From NCBI GenBank assembly GCA_019456305.1, contig VRUD01000014.1, positions 1 to 61,925 on the forward strand: a stretch of 61,925 nt of DNA, given 5' to 3'. The position numbers and the translations under genes were made by a program. The DNA comes from Cytophagales bacterium. Lineage in GTDB: Bacteria; Bacteroidota; Bacteroidia; Cytophagales; VRUD01. Position 1 is the first letter of the stretch, and each line of letters starts with the position of its first letter. The notes beneath the pieces were generated by a model, which saw nothing but the letters and a program-made list of their open reading frames with translations, did no database searches and had not been told where the DNA came from. Below, one piece after another: positions 2,463-52,528 of this stretch.

Positions 2463-4523
2463 ATGGAAAATAAAATTTTACAGAATCCTTTTGGAATTAC
2501 TAAAGCTACAGAATTTACAGATATTGAAATAAATGATTATTGGATTGATTTTAGTTTCGGTAATGATAACGCTGTATTTAATATGCTGAATCCTAATGAA
2601 TATATGCCTAAGTATATACTGGGGAATAAAGGATGTGGAAAAACACATCTGCTAAGGTATTTTTCATTTCCATTACAGAAAATAAGATATGAAAATAATA
2701 CAAGCAGGATACTTGCTGAAGATAAATATATTGGGATATATTCAGGTGCCGGTGGTATAGATGCAAGTAGATTTAAAGGAAAAGGGATAGTGGATAGTAT
2801 TTGGGACAATCTTTTTGAATATTATTTTGAATTATACATTTGTGATAATTTATTAAATACAATCGAAGATATATTTTTGGATATAAAAGTTTCTATTTCA
2901 AAAAAAGAGGAATTAGCTGAAAAAATCAAGGACATTTTTCATACAAAGATTAATGATATAACCGATTTTTCTTCTATTAAAAATTATTTAAAAAAGTTAA
3001 GAAAAAACATAGATTCTGAAGTAGTGAATGCCTCATTTAAACGTGAGTTAGATTATAAATTGGTGAAAATTCTATTTTCACCAGGAGATTTATTATTTGG
3101 TATTCCTAAAATAATAGGTGAAACTATAAGTAAGTTTAAATATATTAAATTCATTTATATTTTAGATCAATATGAAACGCTTTTTGAATCACAAAAGATA
3201 TTTGTCAACTCATTAGTTTTTGACAAGAAAACACCATGTACTTTTTGGATAGGTGCCCGTAAGTATGGGTATACAACAAGAAAGACAAAATCAAATGAAC
3301 CTATAAGACCTGGCTCTGAATTCCAACCAGTTGAATTAGATGTTTTTTTCAGACAAAATGAAGCACACTATAAAAATTTTGCCAAGAATTTATTTGTAAA
3401 CAGACTGTCAAAATTTTATAGTGATAAAAAGCAAAATATAGAAAAAAATGACATTGAAAATGCTTTTAAAGAAAAATTTGTGAAATACACTGATGAAATA
3501 CTAATTAATGAATTAAGAGCAAAATACCCCGAAGGTAATTATAGACATATCAAAAATCTGAATCAAAGATTAAATGATGGTTTTAACAATAAATGTGTTT
3601 ATGGGATTTCAAAAAAAGAACAATTGCAAGAAATTATTGATTTACTATTACACAAAACTGATAATAACCCTTTATATCAAAAGTATAAATTATTTTTTTT
3701 CTATCAAAAATGGAGTAAAGCAAAGGTTAATTCAAATCTTCTTGATTGTGCAAATGAAATTAATTCTCAATTTGAACTATTTTTAAAAAAAATTCCGAGT
3801 GATTTTGATAACATACAGCAAAAATATAGATTAGATTTGTTAGCTCAATTAGCTTCTGAAAACAATATAAAAAATACCTGTTATTCTGGAATTGATAATT
3901 TTATAGATATTTCATGGGGGAATCCAAGAGTTCTTCTATTAATTTTAAAGATAATAATAGAAAAATCGTGGCTTAGGGGGGAGAAACCACTTAATGAAGG
4001 TTCAAAGATATCCCTAGAATCACAGTTTCAAGGTGTATTTGAAACAGCTAAATGGTTTTATGAAGATGCTGAGATTATTGGCGAAATGGGTAAGAATATT
4101 TATAAATCAATAAACAACTTAGCTGATTTATTTAGAGTATATCGTTTTTCAGATAAACCTTCTGAAACTTCCGTTTCTTGTTTCAATTTTAAATTTGAGA
4201 TTCTATCTGATTTAGCAAAAGAATATATTGATAAGGCAAACCTCCATTCTTTAATAATAGAAATAGATAATGGAAGAAAAGAAAAGAATTCTGGCAGAAA
4301 GGAAAAAGTTTATCAATTAAATAAAACTATTGCACCATTATGGAATTTGCCAACAATTAGAAGAGGTGTAGCATCTTTAAACAAAGAAATGTTAAACGCA
4401 ATATTTAATCCTGGTTTTCATGGAAATTTTAACAGTTTACTAAAGAAGAAGAAACAAACTCTAAATGCACCTTTTTGCAATATTAAAGTTCATAGTACCC
4501 AATCAAATCTTTTTGATGAATAA
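2463..4523 (+). CDS. ORC/CDC6-like AAA+ ATPase of the conflict operon
   Basis: From the ATG at 2463 the product is 686 aa. A GTG at 2406 would extend it but would overlap the previous gene, so the ATG, 4 bp after the upstream stop, is preferred. Walker A is GNKGCGKT at about residues 54-61. A Walker-B-like strand ending LDQYE lies at about 234-238, with a sensor-like arginine-containing strand (WIGARKYGYTTRK) shortly after. The length and layout fit the ORC/CDC6-type STAND-like P-loop ATPases found in prokaryotic defence islands. The C-terminal third is helical and probably a winged-helix or helical sensor region. It probably powers or switches the system; the trigger is unknown. Confidence 0.7.
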   Translation: MENKILQNPFGITKATEFTDIEINDYWIDFSFGNDNAVFNMLNPNEYMPKYILGNKGCGKTHLLRYFSFPLQKIRYENNTSRILAEDKYIGIYSGAGGIDASRFKGKGIVDSIWDNLFEYYFELYICDNLLNTIEDIFLDIKVSISKKEELAEKIKDIFHTKINDITDFSSIKNYLKKLRKNIDSEVVNASFKRELDYKLVKILFSPGDLLFGIPKIIGETISKFKYIKFIYILDQYETLFESQKIFVNSLVFDKKTPCTFWIGARKYGYTTRKTKSNEPIRPGSEFQPVELDVFFRQNEAHYKNFAKNLFVNRLSKFYSDKKQNIEKNDIENAFKEKFVKYTDEILINELRAKYPEGNYRHIKNLNQRLNDGFNNKCVYGISKKEQLQEIIDLLLHKTDNNPLYQKYKLFFFYQKWSKAKVNSNLLDCANEINSQFELFLKKIPSDFDNIQQKYRLDLLAQLASENNIKNTCYSGIDNFIDISWGNPRVLLLILKIIIEKSWLRGEKPLNEGSKISLESQFQGVFETAKWFYEDAEIIGEMGKNIYKSINNLADLFRVYRFSDKPSETSVSCFNFKFEILSDLAKEYIDKANLHSLIIEIDNGRKEKNSGRKEKVYQLNKTIAPLWNLPTIRRGVASLNKEMLNAIFNPGFHGNFNSLLKKKKQTLNAPFCNIKVHSTQSNLFDE

Positions 4524-6051: not shown

Positions 6052-7698
6052 CTAAAACACTGTCCCAAACGTAAACAAAAGACTGGTAAAGCTGTTTTTT
6101 ACTGTTGCGAAAGGCTCACTGCCGTCATTTAGCGTATAAGGAGTATAAGCGCTGTTATATTTAGAAGTAACGAAAGCAATATCTAAAAAATAGTCTTTTT
6201 CACGCATCCCTACACCACCGGTTATGTACGTTCTTTTACGGTTAACATTATCGATATTATTGTAAGGGTCGCCATAGAGTGCAAATCCTGCTCTTACTCT
6301 GAAAATTTCAAACCTAAGTTCACCGCCAACTTTTAAGTTGACAGCAGGCTTATAAAGTTTTTTGATGGTTTTATTATCACCTTGAAAGGTTAAACCACCA
6401 CCATTTAAATCGGCTGAATTATATGCTACATATTCTACATCAGTAGAAAGAAAACCTTTTTTGCCTGCAAAAAGAGCAACTCCTCCTGATAATCTGTAGG
6501 GTGTTGTGAGTTTGTAGCTGAAGGTGCCTTCTTCAAGAGAACGTTGTTCTATCGAAGCATAACCACTCGTTATTGATACATTATCAAAATAGGCAGTAAT
6601 ATCAGTTTGATAATCATCTGTCATTGAATAATAAGTAGGAGTCTGAATAAATATACCCGCTCTTACCAAATCTGATGGGCGATATATCAAACCAAACTTT
6701 AAATTTATGCCTGTACCAATAGTTTTATAGTAATCATTTAATACAAAATATCTTAGATTTTCAATCGTATCAGCAATAACATCTTCACGGAATTCTTTCT
6801 TTTCTATATATCTGATCGAAGCTATACCCAAAGATGCTCCTACAAAGAGCTGGTCATCATAATTAGCGCCATAAGCCAAATCCCATTGATTTTGTGCACC
6901 TGTCGTTTCAACAATTTCCTGCTGACTTACTGTATCTCCGGTAATAAATGAATAATAGGTATTATTTACCAAATCGTCAGGATTAGTAAGAAACGTCCAA
7001 TATGCTAATCCTTGGAATGAAGTAATTTGTTCAAATTCCTGGTCTAATTCAGTCACAGGAATACCGTTAGTAATTTCCACAAAATAATCGGTCATGGAAT
7101 TGTTTTTATTAACCCCCTCATAAATAAACCTGTTATGAAAATTATTTAACCTGGTAAAACTGATCCCATAAGTAGCTGCGCGCCAGGTTCCGGGACTGTC
7201 ATCATCGGATAAATTTGTAAATACAATTCCAATGTTGCTGATATTAAAGTTAGATTTTGTATCGGTACTTGTTGTACAAGAATTGGCTGAAGTGCAAAAA
7301 TCAGATTCTGTATTTCCAAATCCTAATGAAGGGGTGATGCTAAAGATCGAATGTCTAAAAGCGCCTAATCCCGCAGGATTGCCGGCAAGAGTGCTCATAT
7401 CGGCTCCGAGTGCAGTCTGAGCGCCAGCCATCCCCTGTATCCTTGCGGTACCGCCAAACCTTGTCTGGGAATACCTTAAAGCGTCAATGTAATAGCCAAA
7501 AGCACCGGGGTCAATCTGGGAGGAGCTGTTTTGGGCAGGGCAAGCAGAAATCAGGAATAAGAAAGATATTAACCCCGTTAGATAGTAATAACATTTTAAC
7601 CTACTATAGTATTTGAAAAAAATATCTAACGGGGTTAAATGTATGGGGAATCTTTTTAACATTAATGCGTTCATGTGCTTACGTGTTCTTGTGCTCAT
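6052..7698 (-). CDS. OmpP1/FadL-like outer-membrane transport protein
   Basis: This 548-aa protein has a hydrophobic export segment (YYLTGLISFLFLISACPAQ, about residues 38-56). The mature start contains FGGTARIQGMAGAQTALGADMSTLAGNPAGLG, read here as two stretches, which is the hallmark of OmpP1/FadL/TodX-type 14-strand barrels (the N-terminal NPAGL motif). Alternating beta strands run to a C-terminal Phe (FTFGTVF). It probably moves hydrophobic compounds across the outer membrane. The start is uncertain: candidate ATGs at 7698, 7674 and 7662 all lie inside or beside a hairpin, and a perfect inverted repeat (7569-7638) separates them from the hydrophobic core. Confidence 0.8.
   Translation of the reverse strand: MSTRTRKHMNALMLKRFPIHLTPLDIFFKYYSRLKCYYYLTGLISFLFLISACPAQNSSSQIDPGAFGYYIDALRYSQTRFGGTARIQGMAGAQTALGADMSTLAGNPAGLGAFRHSIFSITPSLGFGNTESDFCTSANSCTTSTDTKSNFNISNIGIVFTNLSDDDSPGTWRAATYGISFTRLNNFHNRFIYEGVNKNNSMTDYFVEITNGIPVTELDQEFEQITSFQGLAYWTFLTNPDDLVNNTYYSFITGDTVSQQEIVETTGAQNQWDLAYGANYDDQLFVGASLGIASIRYIEKKEFREDVIADTIENLRYFVLNDYYKTIGTGINLKFGLIYRPSDLVRAGIFIQTPTYYSMTDDYQTDITAYFDNVSITSGYASIEQRSLEEGTFSYKLTTPYRLSGGVALFAGKKGFLSTDVEYVAYNSADLNGGGLTFQGDNKTIKKLYKPAVNLKVGGELRFEIFRVRAGFALYGDPYNNIDNVNRKRTYITGGVGMREKDYFLDIAFVTSKYNSAYTPYTLNDGSEPFATVKNSFTSLLFTFGTVF
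7569..7638. repeat. 16-bp perfect inverted repeat inside the OmpP1-like signal region
   Basis: TTAACCCCGTTAGATA at 7569-7584 pairs exactly with 7623-7638 across a 38-bp spacer. It codes in frame for about residues 21-43 of the outer-membrane protein, between the start codons and the hydrophobic export segment. Confidence 0.85.
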
Positions 7699-11438: not shown

Positions 11439-12914
11439 ATGAGCAAAGCGTTACCAGATAAAAATAAAGACTTTTCCGCATGGTATAACGAACTGATAAA
11501 AAAAGCTGACCTGGCTGAAAATTCTGTGGTGCGGGGGTGTATGGTTATCAAGCCTTATGGTTTTGCTATCTGGGAAAAAATGCAATCTATCCTGGATAAA
11601 ATGTTTAAAGATACAGGACATTCCAATGCATATTTTCCATTGCTTATCCCTAAATCTTATCTGAGCAAAGAAGCAGAACATGTAGCAGGTTTTGCAAAAG
11701 AATGTGCTGTAGTAACGCATTACCGGCTGAAAAATGCTGAAGATGGCAGCGGCCTGGTTGTTGACCCCGAAGCAAAGTTAGAAGAAGAATTGGTCATAAG
11801 GCCTACTTCAGAGACCGTTATCTGGAATTCCTACAAAAACTGGATACAATCATACAGGGATCTGCCTATATTGATAAACCAATGGGCTAATATAGTGCGT
11901 TGGGAAATGCGAACCCGCTTTTTTTTGCGCACTACCGAATTTTTATGGCAGGAAGGGCATACAGCACATGCTACTGAAAATGAAGCCGTTGAAGAAACAC
12001 TAAAAATATTGAGCTTATATGCTGAATTTGCAGAAAAGTACATGGCAATGCCCGTGCTTAAAGGCAAACAAACTGAAAATGAAAAATTCGCTGGCGCTGT
12101 TGATACTTATTGCATAGAAGCATTGATGCAGGACGGCAAAGCATTGCAGGTGGGCACATCCCATTTTCTTGGACAAAACTTTGCCAAGGCTTTTGATGTA
12201 AAGTTTGCCACACAGCAAGGCGGTACTGATTATGTTTGGGGCACTTCCTGGGGGGTAAGTACCCGGCTTATGGGTGCGCTGATCATGGCTCATGGCGATG
12301 ACCATGGTTTGGTATTGCCGCCTTTACTTGCACCTTTTCAGGTAGTGGTAATTCCTATATATAAAAGTGCGGAGGAACTGGCAGCTATTGGTGAAAAAGC
12401 AAGTAAGATCATAAAATCGCTCCGGGATAAAGGTATATCAGTGAAATATGATGACAGAGATACCCATAAACCAGGTTGGAAATTTGCTGAATATGAGCTT
12501 AAAGGGGTGCCTGTAAGGATTGCTATCGGACCCAGAGACCTTAAAAACAATACAGCAGAAGTTGCAAGACGGGATACCATGGAAAAAGAAAATTATAATG
12601 CTGATAATTTGGCTGAAAAAATTGATAAACTGCTGCTGGAAATTCAACAAAATATCTATGATAAAGCGCTTGCCTTTCGCGAAGAACAGACCACAAGCGT
12701 TGATTCCTACAAAGAATTTAAAGAAGTTATACAGAATAAAGGAGGTTTTATATTAGCACACTGGGACGGCACAACTGAAACAGAACAGAAAATACAGGAG
12801 GAAACAAAAGCAACCATCCGGTGTATTTTGATGGATGGACAGAATGAAAAAGGGAAATGTATTTATTCGGGAATGACATCTGAGAAAAGGGTTATTTTTG
12901 CAAAAGCGTATTGA
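11439..12914 (+). CDS. proS: prolyl-tRNA synthetase (archaeal/eukaryotic type)
   Basis: This 491-aa class II aminoacyl-tRNA synthetase charges tRNA-Pro in the cytoplasm. Motif 2 region [24 protein letters not shown], read in two parts (about residues 153-176), and motif 3 [24 protein letters not shown] (about 268-291) are intact. The HGDDHGL ending is characteristic of the eukaryote-like ProS without the bacterial editing insertion. An anticodon-binding domain and a C-terminal zinc-binding-like domain follow. Type 3 ProS is usual in Bacteroidota. The ATG follows a spacer of 21 bp after the methyltransferase gene. Confidence 0.97.
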
Positions 12915-17458: not shown

Positions 17459-19480
17459 ATGTGTGGGATCAACCTTATTATTGACAAAAGATCGAATATT
17501 GATGAGCGTTATATCATTAGAATGAATTCAGTAACCTGCCACAGAGGTCCTGATGCGACAAACTTTATTAAATCACGCTTTGCTGATTCACTTCAACAGA
17601 CCATCTATATTGGTAATAACCGCCTCAAAATAATTGACAAAAGCGATCTGGCCAACCAGCCTTTTATCTCGCCTTGCGGCAAATATATTATTTCTTTTAA
17701 CGGAGAGATCTACAATTATTTGGAATTAAAAAAGAATTTAGATGTACAATTAAAGACCACATCTGATACGGAGGTTTTATTACACCTGTTAATAAAATAC
17801 AATATTGATGCATTGCAAATGCTCAATGGAATGTTTGGAGTTATTTTCTATGATGGGTTGAAAAATGAAGTAACTATCGCCAGAGACCGCTTTGGTATGA
17901 AGCCGGTATATTATTATGAAGATGAAAATTATTTTATCTGCTCATCAGAAATACAAAGTATTTTGTCTACCAATCTGGTAAAAAAAAAACTTAACTCAAA
18001 ACAAATCCCACATTACTTAAGCTTCAAATTTGCCTGTAAACCCGAAACATTCTACCAAAATATCTATGAATTGGAAGAGGGGCATTACATAAAACAAGCC
18101 CCCCTAAATCCCCCCAAAGGGGGGACTTTGCCATCCCCTTTCCCTTTGGGCAGTGGGGTCGGGAAGTCCTCCCGAGTACTCGGGAGAGGACGATGTCCAG
18201 TGGACATCGAGCCAGCACTGCGGGAGGCAGGGGGGCTGTCATCAAAAGAGATCATAAATAAAACAGAAACTTTACTCATCAATTCAGTAGAAAAGCACCT
18301 GAGAGCTGACGTGCCTGCAGGTATTTTTCTCAGTGGAGGCGTAGATTCTACTTTACTGCTTGCCATTATCAATGAATTAGGAATTAAAAACTTTCCCTCT
18401 TTTACTATTGGAAACACAAACGATAAAGACTCGTTTGGCACCAAAGACCACTACTTTGCCGGAATTGCTGCCCAACAATACAAAAGCGATCATCACCATA
18501 TAAATATAGACAGTTCTATTATGGACTATATTGATAAATTGATCGTTTCGCTGGACCAACCAATTGCTGACGGGGCTGCTCTGCTCACATATATCTTATC
18601 GGAAGAAACAAAAAACTTTATAACTACTGTGTTATCAGGAGCCGGAGCTGATGAAATGTTTGCCGGATACAACCGGCACGCTGCCTGGTATTTCTATCTT
18701 CGAAATCGAAATAAATTGTCCCTGATCAACTCGGGGTTAAAACCTGCTTTATGTAAATTGTCACGGTGTTTACCTACGGGTTTTGATCATCCATTGAGAG
18801 AGCCTTTCAGGTTGATCAGTAAATTTATCCACCAAATAGATAAAGACCCTGGTAAAACATTTGTTAATTTTACCTCAGCAGAAGGGTTTGATACAGCCCC
18901 CCTAACAGCCCCCCTAAATCCCCCCAAAGGGGGGACTTTGCCATTCCCTTTCCCTTTGGGAAGTGGGGTGGGTAAGTCCCCCCTTTGGGGGGATTTAGGG
19001 GGGCTGCTTGAGATTAATTATTATCTCAATAAAGGGTTACAGCTTGACAGATCAAGGTATTTAATATCAGACGTTTTGGCATTAACAGATAAGATGGCAA
19101 TGCGTCATTCCCTGGAGGTGAGAATGCCATATTTAGATATGGAACTTACAGGTTTTATTAATACTATTGAGCCTGAAAAATTATTTAAACATGGTAGGAA
19201 ATGGATATTGAAAAAGATATTAAATAATAAAAATGGAAGACAATATGTAAAAAGACGTAAAGAAGGTTTTGGTATGCCTTTTGGAAGCTGGTTAAAAGAA
19301 AAAAAATGTAGGTGGGTCAGTGATACTATGTTGAAAAAAAAACATCTTATTTACCAGTACGTTGATTATAATAAAACGTGTGAAATGATCAACACTCATT
19401 TAAAAAATAAAAGAGATTATTCAACCGAACTCTGGTCTTTATTTGTACTGACAAAATGGTTGGAAAAAGAATTTAATTAA
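17459..19480 (+). CDS. asparagine synthase (glutamine-hydrolysing) with two in-frame palindromic insertions
   Basis: The start is the ATG at 17459, because Cys2 (MCGI) must be exposed as the glutaminase nucleophile; 673 aa. The N-terminal class II amidotransferase has NGEIYNY and SDTEVLL. The synthetase domain has the PP-loop SGGVDSTLLL (about residue 292). The PYLD near the C-terminus is also present (MRMPYLDMEL-like). Two repeat-coded inserts interrupt it: residues about 213-261 between the domains, and about 478-517 inside the synthetase domain, both with NPPKGGTLP and PFPLGSGVGKS. Without them the length would be near 585. The following glycosyltransferase (3 bp away) suggests a role in surface-polysaccharide or peptide modification, not bulk Asn supply. 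Whether it is active is unclear. Confidence 0.9.
   Translation: MCGINLIIDKRSNIDERYIIRMNSVTCHRGPDATNFIKSRFADSLQQTIYIGNNRLKIIDKSDLANQPFISPCGKYIISFNGEIYNYLELKKNLDVQLKTTSDTEVLLHLLIKYNIDALQMLNGMFGVIFYDGLKNEVTIARDRFGMKPVYYYEDENYFICSSEIQSILSTNLVKKKLNSKQIPHYLSFKFACKPETFYQNIYELEEGHYIKQAPLNPPKGGTLPSPFPLGSGVGKSSRVLGRGRCPVDIEPALREAGGLSSKEIINKTETLLINSVEKHLRADVPAGIFLSGGVDSTLLLAIINELGIKNFPSFTIGNTNDKDSFGTKDHYFAGIAAQQYKSDHHHINIDSSIMDYIDKLIVSLDQPIADGAALLTYILSEETKNFITTVLSGAGADEMFAGYNRHAAWYFYLRNRNKLSLINSGLKPALCKLSRCLPTGFDHPLREPFRLISKFIHQIDKDPGKTFVNFTSAEGFDTAPLTAPLNPPKGGTLPFPFPLGSGVGKSPLWGDLGGLLEINYYLNKGLQLDRSRYLISDVLALTDKMAMRHSLEVRMPYLDMELTGFINTIEPEKLFKHGRKWILKKILNNKNGRQYVKRRKEGFGMPFGSWLKEKKCRWVSDTMLKKKHLIYQYVDYNKTCEMINTHLKNKRDYSTELWSLFVLTKWLEKEFN
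18097..18241. repeat. composite palindromic insertion 1 in asparagine synthase
   Basis: It starts with a 32-bp segment (18097-18128) identical to the arm of insertion 2. The expected right arm is replaced by nested palindromes, including TCCCGAGTACTCGGGA (18170-18185) and GATGTCCAGTGGACATC. It closes with AGGGGGGCT. It is in frame over about 48 codons. Confidence 0.85.
18906..19006. repeat. 33-bp perfect inverted repeat, insertion 2 in asparagine synthase
   Basis: The arms at 18906-18938 and 18974-19006 are exact reverse complements. They begin CAGCCCCCCTAAATCCCCCC and enclose a 35-bp centre. The repeat is translated through in frame (APLNPPKGG to LWGDLGGLL). A partial extra copy of CAGCCCCCCTAA lies just before it. 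Confidence 0.92.
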
Positions 19481-30359: not shown

Positions 30360-30972
30360 TGTTTAGTTGCGTAAGTTTTCTATAGATTTGCAAACAGGTT
30401 TTGAGGCGGGAAAAAGCCCCAAGTCCCAAATTCCAAGTAAAAAGTAAAAAGTAAAAAGTAAAAAGTAAAATGAAAAAAACTGCCTCCATATTTTTACTTT
30501 TTACTTTTTACTTAAAAGCAACGGACAGGAGGATATGAGAATTGGCAATAGAAATTGCTGATAAACTATACGAAATTATTGTAGCACGAAATTTATTTCG
30601 TGGTAAAATTATATATCCCGCGATATAAATATCGCGCTACAGTTAGTTTGATATTGCTGATGAGCTAAAAAAATATTATGAGCAGAATGTTAAATAATGA
30701 ATGTAGAATGAATGCAAATAAGAATAAACGCAAATATGACCAAGAGCAAGAAACCTTCTGACAAGAAAACTTCGGAAATTCCCTCCCATATTCCATCTGA
30801 AATTTCCGAAGGTTGTGAAATGAAAATTTAAAATGAAAAAAACTGCCTCCATATTTTTACTTTTTACTTTTTACTTTTTACTTTTTACTTGGAGTTTGGG
30901 ACTTTGGACTTAAATTCAATTATATAGATTATTTATGCAATTTAACACTAGCATTAGCAGGCTTTGCAAAAT
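30360..30972. repeat. 613-bp gene-free gap with two related hairpins
   Basis: The left hairpin (about 30426-30521) has AAAAAGT units against ACTTTTT units. The second (about 30830-30893) repeats the core GAAAAAAACTGCCTCCATAT followed by ACTTTTT units, so the two share a 40-bp direct repeat. Between them are a TTTCGTG/CACGAAAT hairpin, an ATATCGCG palindrome and an AACTTCGGAAATT/AATTTCCGAAGGTT hairpin. No open frame looks coding. Confidence 0.7.
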
Positions 30973-50049: not shown

Positions 50050-50359
50050 CCCCGCCCTTTTGATTATTAATGTAATGAGTTTTTTAATCGTTTTTTTAAA
50101 TGACCTATTACACTACCATGATGCTTTAGCTTATGTTCGCGGTCTAATGCGTCATTTTTATCTAAAAAAGCTTCATAATAAACCAATTGTAAAGGGGTAT
50201 AATATTTAGTAGATTTTACTTTACCTTCATCATGTTCTAACAGTCTTCTTTTCACGTCAGGAGTACTTCCAATATATATAAAATCCTTTTTTTTACTTTT
50301 TAATAGATAAACATAATACATAATATATCTGTCTTAAACTAATAATCAAAAGGGCGGGG
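50050..50359. mobile_element. 310-bp element: GIY-YIG gene between perfect 20-bp inverted repeats
   Basis: CCCCGCCCTTTTGATTATTA (50050-50069) is exactly complementary to 50340-50359. The only gene between is the small GIY-YIG nuclease gene, whose stop codon (50067-50069) lies in the left arm. The right arm abuts the stop codon of the peptidase gene (50360-50362). No obvious target-site duplication was identified. Confidence 0.75.
50067..50321 (-). CDS. GIY-YIG endonuclease (UPF0213-like)
   Basis: This 84-aa protein is a single GIY-YIG domain: YYVYLLKSKKKDFIYIGST (GIY...YIG as VYL and YIG), R at VKRRLLEH, and E in YYEAFLDKNDALDREHKLK. It is complete for this small family. It may be a structure-specific nuclease. 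It lies within perfect 20-bp inverted repeats, which suggests it could serve its own mobility. Confidence 0.9.
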   Translation of the reverse strand: MYYVYLLKSKKKDFIYIGSTPDVKRRLLEHDEGKVKSTKYYTPLQLVYYEAFLDKNDALDREHKLKHHGSVIGHLKKRLKNSLH

Positions 50360-52528
50360 CTACTGAATATCCGGCTCCATTCCCAAATTATAAAACACAA
50401 ACGACAACACATCGGTCCATTCGTCTATCCGTTTTGAAGTTGGTTTTCCTGCACCATGACCTGCTTTTGTATCAATGCGAATCAATACAGGGGCAGTTCC
50501 TGCTTGTTTTTCCTGTAACGTGGAGATAAATTTAAATGAGTGTGCCGGCACTACCCGGTCATCATGGTCGGCAGTGGTGACTAATGTGGCAGGATAGTTA
50601 ACGTTTCCTGCTACGTTATGTAGAGGCGAGAAACTGTACAGGTTAAAAAATTGTGTGGAATCTTCACTGGAGCCGTATTCAGAAACCCATGCCCAACCGA
50701 TAGTAAATTTATGGAAACGCAACATGTCCATAACACCTACTCCGGGCAAAGCTACTTTATAAAGATCAGGCCGCTGGGTCATGCAGGCGCCCACCAATAA
50801 GCCACCGTTTGAACGGCCTGAAATGGCTAATTTATCGGGAGAAGTATATTTCTGTTCAATAAGATATTCAGCAGCAGCAATGAAGTCATCAAATACGTTT
50901 TGTTTATTTAACAACATACCCCCTTTATGCCACTCTTCGCCATATTCTCCGCCCCCTCTCAAGTTTGGCACAGCGTAAACGCCACCATTTTCCAGAAAAG
51001 GCAATAAATGAAGCTGAAATCTGGGGGTAATGCTGATATTAAAGCCCCCGTAACCGTAAAGATAGGTTGGATTATTGCCATTTAATTCAAGTCCCTTTTT
51101 GTGCACTATAAATATGGGAATTTCAGTGCCATCTTTGCTTTTATAAAAGTTTTGTGTAGTTTGATAATCAGATTCAACAAATTCTATTTTTGGCCTTTTG
51201 AATAAAGTAGTTTGTTTTGTTTTTAAATCATACCTGTAAATAGTTGTAGGAATAACAAAAGAGGTGAACGAATAAAATACGAACCGGTCATCTTTTTTCC
51301 CCTTGAAGCCATTTGCAGACCCCAATGCGGGAAACAGTATTTCATCAACTTTATAAAAGGCAATGTATCTTTTACGTTCATAAACCATAACCCTGCTGCA
51401 GGCATTCATCATATAATTGACAAAAAGCTTTTGTCCTGCATAAGAGATCTTATGTATAACCAGTTCATTCTCAGGAATTAATTCTTTCCAGTTTTCCTGT
51501 TTTGGAGGATTTGTATTGATTAATATTACACGGTATTTTGGTGCATTCAAGTTTGTTTTTACAATAAGCTTTTGATCAATATTTCCAATTACAGAATAAT
51601 GATTTTCAAAATTATCTACAATGGGCGTTATACCCTTACTCGGATCAGAGAGGTTTGGATCTTTTAACAAGTCCATAAAATATAGTGCATTTTTTTCAGA
51701 AGCGCCTTTGGAGATATACAATATTAAGAAGCGTTCGTCTTCTGTAGTATTTGCATATACATTACGCAAAGGATGCTCCTTATCTTCATAAATTAACAGG
51801 TCTTTATCCTGGGAAGTGCCAATTTTATGATAATAGAGTTTATGAAATTCATTTTTAGATTCAAGCTCTTTTCCTTTTTTAGGAGCATCGTAACGGCTGT
51901 AAAAGAATCCATCTTTGTACCAGGCGATATCTGAAAATTTGATCCACTTTAAATGATCATCCAGCGGTTTTTTAGAGTCAATGTCTATTACAAAAAACTC
52001 ATTCCAGTCTGAGCCGCCTTTTGCAATACCGTATCCTAAAAGTTTCCCGTCATTGGAAATGCTTGTGTTGGTAAGCGAAACCGTGCCATCCTCCGATAAC
52101 AGGTTGGGGTCTAATAACATTTCAGGCTCTGAATCCAGGTCTTTCTGCATATAAAATACGGATTGATTTTGAAGCCCATCATTTTTGAAAAAGAAATAAT
52201 GGTTTCCGGCTTTTACGGGCGGAGAATACCTGGGGTAATTCCACAATTCTTTGAGGCGATTTTTGATTTTTTGCCGGTAAGGGATTTTTTCAAGATAGCT
52301 GAAGGTTACTTCATTTTGCGCTTTCACCCAGTCAGCTACAGCCGAAGAGTCTGAAACTTCAAGCCAGCGGTAAGGGTCAGCTACTTTTGTACCAAAGTAA
52401 TCGTCTACATGGTCTATCTTTGCTGTTTTGGTATATACCGGTTTTACATTTTCTCTTGACTCTTTGATTGTACAAAAGGTCGTTGAAAATGAGATAAGAA
52501 CGAGGAAAAGGAGATTTTTAGTTTTCAT
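50360..52528 (-). CDS. prolyl oligopeptidase (S9A)
   Basis: This 722-aa protein has a lipobox-like or signal start (LLFLVLISFSTTFC). A beta-propeller N-terminal region begins DDYFGTKVADPYRWLE, typical of S9A. The hydrolase domain has the nucleophile Ser in GRSNGGLL (about residue 572), Asp in TTADHDDRVVPAHS and His in KAGHGAGK. It cleaves short peptides after proline, probably in the periplasm. Confidence 0.95.
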   Translation of the reverse strand: MKTKNLLFLVLISFSTTFCTIKESRENVKPVYTKTAKIDHVDDYFGTKVADPYRWLEVSDSSAVADWVKAQNEVTFSYLEKIPYRQKIKNRLKELWNYPRYSPPVKAGNHYFFFKNDGLQNQSVFYMQKDLDSEPEMLLDPNLLSEDGTVSLTNTSISNDGKLLGYGIAKGGSDWNEFFVIDIDSKKPLDDHLKWIKFSDIAWYKDGFFYSRYDAPKKGKELESKNEFHKLYYHKIGTSQDKDLLIYEDKEHPLRNVYANTTEDERFLILYISKGASEKNALYFMDLLKDPNLSDPSKGITPIVDNFENHYSVIGNIDQKLIVKTNLNAPKYRVILINTNPPKQENWKELIPENELVIHKISYAGQKLFVNYMMNACSRVMVYERKRYIAFYKVDEILFPALGSANGFKGKKDDRFVFYSFTSFVIPTTIYRYDLKTKQTTLFKRPKIEFVESDYQTTQNFYKSKDGTEIPIFIVHKKGLELNGNNPTYLYGYGGFNISITPRFQLHLLPFLENGGVYAVPNLRGGGEYGEEWHKGGMLLNKQNVFDDFIAAAEYLIEQKYTSPDKLAISGRSNGGLLVGACMTQRPDLYKVALPGVGVMDMLRFHKFTIGWAWVSEYGSSEDSTQFFNLYSFSPLHNVAGNVNYPATLVTTADHDDRVVPAHSFKFISTLQEKQAGTAPVLIRIDTKAGHGAGKPTSKRIDEWTDVLSFVFYNLGMEPDIQ

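Follow-up and report, generated by a model that had tools for sequence, protein, structure and literature searches.

A GIY-YIG nuclease gene boxed by inverted repeats in a Cytophagales contig, a probable copy of a minimal selfish element

The boxed gene and its product

Contig VRUD01000014.1 of a Cytophagales bacterium (assembly GCA_019456305.1), whose 61,925 nucleotides are referred to throughout as the window, carries a small GIY-YIG nuclease gene between two terminal inverted repeats (TIRs) (Table 1). The initial annotation of this DNA had described exactly complementary arms around a single small nuclease gene, with the stop codon of that gene within the left arm and the stop codon of its neighbor flush against the right arm, and all of these points were confirmed by the sequence and by a repeat search of the window. 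The left arm reads CCCCGCCCTTTTGATTATTA, its exact reverse complement forms the right arm, and the extended arms run to 26 nt at 92%. One convincing gene lies inside, an open reading frame (ORF) assigned to GIY-YIG by Pfam; it was the sole ORF of note in the element, within which no DDE transposase was found. Rfam introns overlapped neither the window element nor the elements in loci L044-L083, so that no group I or group II intron core was recorded for them.

When the whole window was shuffled 20 times with dinucleotides preserved, the longest exact inverted repeat with arms 40-400 bp apart measured 12-16 nt, compared with 20 nt observed, although such shuffles do not model real repeat families, of which the window holds others. 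The arms together with the enclosed gene are far beyond chance. That the arms might be ordinary terminators, as the initial annotation had allowed, was not borne out: a terminator scan had no match at the arms, which rules this explanation out, and a single arm is not self-complementary. These results bear on the simplest alternative, in which a UPF0213-type gene stands by itself and the repeats are coincidental or terminators. The closest solved sequence relatives in the PDB are indeed UPF0213 proteins; however, with arms that are not terminators, chance repeats that fall well short of them, and other copies and empty sites in existence (see below), this reading is highly improbable.

Table 1. 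Features of the element and its immediate context in the window
Feature	Position	Strand	Remarks
Left terminal inverted repeat	50050..50069	+	20 nt perfect, imperfect to 50075; includes the nuclease gene's stop codon
Right terminal inverted repeat	50340..50359	-	20 nt perfect, imperfect from 50334; abuts the neighbor's stop codon
Whole element	50050..50359	.	310 bp, outer edge to outer edge; arms paired in the predicted whole-element RNA fold (z = -3.9)
84-aa GIY-YIG nuclease	50067..50321	-	PF01541, E=7.8e-16; C-terminal LKxRLKxSL tail; stop 50067-50069
Prolyl oligopeptidase (S9), host gene	50360..52528	-	Context outside the element; right arm abuts its stop

Among 32 aligned members, PF01541 was found in every protein and nine columns were invariant, among them the superfamily's catalytic Tyr, Arg and Glu (invariant residues include Y5, Y16, G18, R26, H30 and E62). 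The domain with conserved Tyr, Tyr, Arg and Glu that marks the GIY-YIG superfamily is therefore present, and the fold match agrees: the AlphaFold2 model (mean predicted local distance difference test [pLDDT] score of 95.9) had UPF0213 and Slx1 as its best Foldseek matches, the same two families that supplied the best PDB matches by sequence and fold. No curated UPF0213 model was matched above its cut-off, and NCBIfam gave only sub-threshold models for intron endonucleases and UvrC. Slx1 differs in being a eukaryotic structure-specific repair nuclease that carries further domains. Because this relative is structure-specific, cutting at hairpin or branched DNA is a plausible prediction for the window nuclease. 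We know of no association of either UPF0213 or Slx1 with TIRs.

Relatives, shared ends and copies without the gene

To place the element, the best 80 relatives were taken from 84,980 genomes. They lie outside Bacteroidota, mostly in Elusimicrobiota, Omnitrophota, Planctomycetota (Scalindua) and Patescibacteria, at protein identities of 75% and below (75-58% for the closest), and no close phage or viral carriers were found. Nearly all of the closest relatives are tightly bracketed by inverted repeats, most of them perfect, with a sequence related to CCC[CA]GCCCTTTTGG, which bears out the expectation of conserved ends in the initial annotation; the TIRs of this element begin (A)CCC[CA]G. Relatives from the same order reach only 51% identity and lower, and many are without TIRs. 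Some same-order genomes carry tandem arrays of GIY-YIG genes a few hundred base pairs apart (G224:C8:75299-77868, G342:C77, G231:C11, G321:C1), and a subgroup without TIRs ends in the tail GSxYxxLLKRL (L064 and L067, also L071, L078, L094 and L100); the sites of L064 and L067 are immediately 5′ of tRNA-Trp genes, and upstream there is a partial tRNA-like copy.

The association of gene and repeats was evaluated at 110 GIY-YIG loci by scoring arms within ∼120 nt of the gene against a null in which flanks were swapped between loci; this tight-window, strict-scoring test replaced an earlier wide-window version that was confounded by other repeat families. Thirty-seven of the 110 loci fell at or above the 99th percentile of the null (∼1 expected), of which a few (e.g., L004, L025, L063 and L082) are other palindromes and not element ends. 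The TIR-positive set was taken as 35-36 loci; it includes a few just under the cut-off, L050 and L066 among them, that were retained on the basis of sequence and position. Mapped onto a maximum-likelihood tree, the TIR label required 10 changes versus 30.7 with shuffled labels, on a tree in which many forks are unresolved and to which near-copies contribute. TIR similarity was correlated with protein identity (Mantel r=0.36, p=0.0001; 9,999 permutations). A C-terminal LKxRL tail was present in 31/35 TIR-associated proteins versus 3/76 others (Fisher p=2e-13), a motif picked after viewing the alignment and compared with a group in which 42 of the 76 proteins are without the anchor motif.

Ends also occur without an intact gene. 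In the host genome of the window, the CCCCGCCCTTTTGATTATTA 20-mer recurs at C99:12494 opposite a one-mismatch partner at 12600, and this 107-bp copy keeps the beginning of the nuclease gene and its final ∼30 bp with the middle gone; by its sequence it derives from a gene-bearing copy by internal deletion and is non-autonomous. Another copy, at C12:21821, is partial, and a lone end with one mismatch to the left-arm 20-mer is found near C25:46942, just after an ORF that we take, from reading its sequence, to be dnaK-like. The element therefore occupies more than one site, so that the search for other copies called for in the initial annotation succeeded, both here and among the relatives. A second, related end family, TTTACCCCGTGAAAT, had 17 matches versus 0 for a reversed control; several of these are short gene-less hairpins, and one is an end beside another GIY-YIG gene (L003). 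Across 22 genomes the TIR motif itself had 57 matches versus 7 for the reversed control, and gene-less hairpins of 49, 60 and 103 bp recur in host genomes. Together with the C99 copy, these are short non-coding copies with the same ends, as in miniature inverted-repeat transposable elements (MITEs). The window holds a 70-bp gene-less hairpin of its own at 7569-7638, whose exact 16-nt arms, TTAACCCCGTTAGATA, resemble the ends of other GIY-YIG elements (TCCCGTTAGAGATA in L075). Another GIY-YIG gene of this genome (L002, 1390-1779) is flanked by two tRNA-Pro predictions and by repeated fragments that resemble tRNA. The GIY-YIG gene of L004 (1270-1950) lies amid TGTCATTGCGAG and GAAGCAATCTGTT repeats on both flanks.

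Gene-less hairpins are common enough to suggest that the palindromic repeats might be the mobile unit, mobilized in trans by some other enzyme of host or phage origin with the GIY-YIG gene as cargo, and a nuclease without known strand-transfer chemistry would fit such a passive role. One such enzyme might be a Y1 transposase associated with repetitive extragenic palindromic (REP) sequences. REP sequences with their REP-associated tyrosine transposases (RAYTs), and MITEs, likewise consist of short palindromes scattered over a genome with a related enzyme-bearing copy; RAYTs, however, are Y1 HUH transposases, whereas the only protein of the present element is a GIY-YIG nuclease (no search was made for a Y1 transposase in the rest of the genome). 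Mobilization in trans is also at odds with the co-variation of TIR sequence and nuclease phylogeny, the restriction of TIRs to certain nuclease clades with a specific tail, the same gene between TIRs in many phyla, and the origin of the C99 copy by deletion from a gene-bearing one. It is therefore unlikely.

Insertion sites and their empty counterparts

The window copy is itself intergenic, and its relatives occupy varied sites. Analysis with cmscan placed gene-bearing copies in 16S rRNA (L047, L051, L052 and L066), 23S rRNA (L057) and RNase P RNA (L054), the 16S placement of L051 being less firm owing to Ns upstream in the scaffold and a cmscan boundary inside the element. At L066 a second, gene-less insert stands at the same 16S site as in L051. 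In L054 a 14-bp pairing joins the strand 5′ of the element to the 3′ terminus of the RNA, indicating that the RNase P RNA gene is split at the P3 region. The same RNase P RNA has, near 3560-3590, a further hairpin that carries the element's end sequence (CCCGCACATAAA) and no gene. Other copies adjoin tRNA genes at their 5′ ends (L053, L059 and L065) or lie within coding sequence (L016, L019, L020 and L070).

In the 16S and 23S relatives, complementary arms form a stem at an rRNA hairpin tip in place of a small loop, as in rRNA intervening sequences (IVSs). Selection on folding in rRNA or other transcripts could be what keeps the repeats, with the ORF incidental, and both the many copies within structured RNA and the stable fold of the window element are compatible with this. 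However, TIRs are equally perfect in coding-gene and intergenic copies, and the invariant catalytic residues in 32 proteins indicate selection on the protein, making an explanation at the RNA level improbable.

Empty sites, which the initial annotation had proposed to look for, were found as intact counterparts in three settings; for the RNase P RNA insertion, none was obtained among the relatives searched. Loci L070 and L177 are paralogous segments of one genome (85% identical); L177 has GAATATTTACAG where L070 has GAA, the element and CAG, a replacement of 6 bp. In a gene that we take from its sequence to be four-helix-bundle-like (IVP-like), ∼5 bp were replaced by the element. In 23S rRNA, the L057 element stands where relatives have a short hairpin between CAAG or CGAG and GTAG. 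Flush target duplications of at least 5 bp were seen in 3/33 loci, which is not the regular duplication of DDE insertion sequences. The fixed target that the initial annotation had expected was not found: targets are diverse and, in the clearest comparisons, ∼5-6 bp were replaced, not duplicated.

Palindromes that share these ends and lack the gene, found both next to gene-bearing copies and away from them (L045, L046 and L061), raise the alternative that the GIY-YIG gene is a homing endonuclease invading pre-existing palindromic repeats, with separate histories for gene and palindrome. In the empty counterparts of coding and rRNA sites the uninserted sequence has no matching palindrome, which suggests a joint arrival of palindrome and gene, and the C99 copy records gene loss, not gain. 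Homing into existing palindromes is thus slightly less likely even than mobilization in trans.

A candidate minimal selfish element and its known counterparts

Sequence comparison establishes what the unit is and where it ends, that it has spread horizontally, that it has inserted at several sites, some with empty counterparts, that it gives rise to deletion derivatives and that its ends co-vary with the nuclease. The tiny autonomous element of the initial annotation is supported with regard to unit mobility, conserved ends, copies, empty sites and gene-less derivatives, but not with regard to the fixed target. Our preferred reading, to which we assign a probability of roughly 0.7, is that the 310-bp box is an intact copy of a minimal IVS-like selfish element whose 84-aa GIY-YIG nuclease drives its own spread. 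The element has spread among distant phyla, probably through DNA cutting by its own enzyme; from the linkage of the nuclease to the ends and their co-variation, we infer that it performs the move itself.

Under the proposed mechanism, the GIY-YIG nuclease would cut target DNA, and host double-strand-break repair would copy the element in with the loss of ∼5-6 bp of target and no regular duplication. The TIRs would fold the insert as a hairpin in any transcript, and copies would therefore survive in structural RNA. Such an insert would be tolerable at the tips of hairpins in rRNA and RNase P RNA and after stop codons, and loss of the gene would leave short MITE-like palindromes. Hairpin inserts are tolerated in structural RNA in the case of IVSs (PMC4990558).

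Several points weigh against this reading. Cutting, target choice, the repair route and present-day activity are inferred. Most loci are metagenome-assembled, and the host's family is represented by a single genome, so that the window site offers no strain-level presence/absence comparison. To our knowledge GIY-YIG enzymes do not join strands, and installation must then depend on host repair. Target rules are also irregular, with 7-bp duplications confined to two tRNA-gene loci (L053 and L059) and replacement at other loci. Nor was there any signal of palindromic target preference beyond chance, and for this reason the clustering of copies in RNA hairpins may be due to survival and not to target choice.

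Among known systems, the rRNA IVSs, such as that in helix 45 of Coxiella 23S rRNA, are closest: they are TIR stem-loops with a small ORF inside, sit at hairpin tips in place of a small loop, and have a patchy, horizontal distribution (PMC4990558). IVSs encode S23 or four-helix-bundle ORFs, in contrast to the GIY-YIG nuclease here, and the present element is not confined to rRNA, occurring also in RNase P RNA, coding genes and intergenic sites, with MITE-like derivatives and end sequences common to several phyla. In candidate phyla radiation (CPR) bacteria, GIY-YIG ORFs have been described in 16S and 23S insertions belonging to neither of the two intron groups (I and II), with no mention of inverted ends (PMC11270868). 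The likeness is a GIY-YIG ORF inside a non-intron rRNA insertion; the difference is that unit, ends and non-rRNA sites are defined here. The Seg proteins of phage T4, free-standing GIY-YIG homing endonucleases, home into a homologous allele, whereas the present element occupies many unrelated sites, and we know of no TIRs or gene-less palindromes for them. Their genes are likewise small and standalone, and are considered to favor their own spread (PMC2988022). No description of GIY-YIG joined with an inverted-repeat, MITE, REP, palindrome or IVS element was found in the open-access literature; inverted-repeat elements on the one hand and rRNA-borne GIY-YIG ORFs on the other are known, and their combination is undescribed there.

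If the reading of a self-spreading element is correct, it would provide a concrete mobile element and enzyme for rRNA IVSs, whose function and origin have been called unclear (PMC4990558) decades after their discovery. It would also suggest where the GIY-YIG ORFs of CPR rRNA, and some families of palindromic repeats in Bacteroidota and Patescibacteria, come from, and would offer a minimal, testable selfish element of one 84-aa protein and two short arms. More tentatively, and with the odds somewhat against so broad a claim, these copies could represent an undescribed, cross-phylum superfamily of autonomous bacterial transposable elements, at ∼300 bp among the smallest known, in which a minimal GIY-YIG nuclease recognizing its own TIRs is the sole mobility protein, and from which many rRNA IVSs and palindromic repeats in Patescibacteria and Bacteroidota derive.

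Two other repeat regions were seen in the window. At 30414-30911, a long inverted repeat of AAGTAAAA units flanks ∼300 bp without an ORF of at least 60 aa, and at 18097-19006, AGCCCCCCTAAATCCCCCC repeats occur in both direct and inverted orientation.
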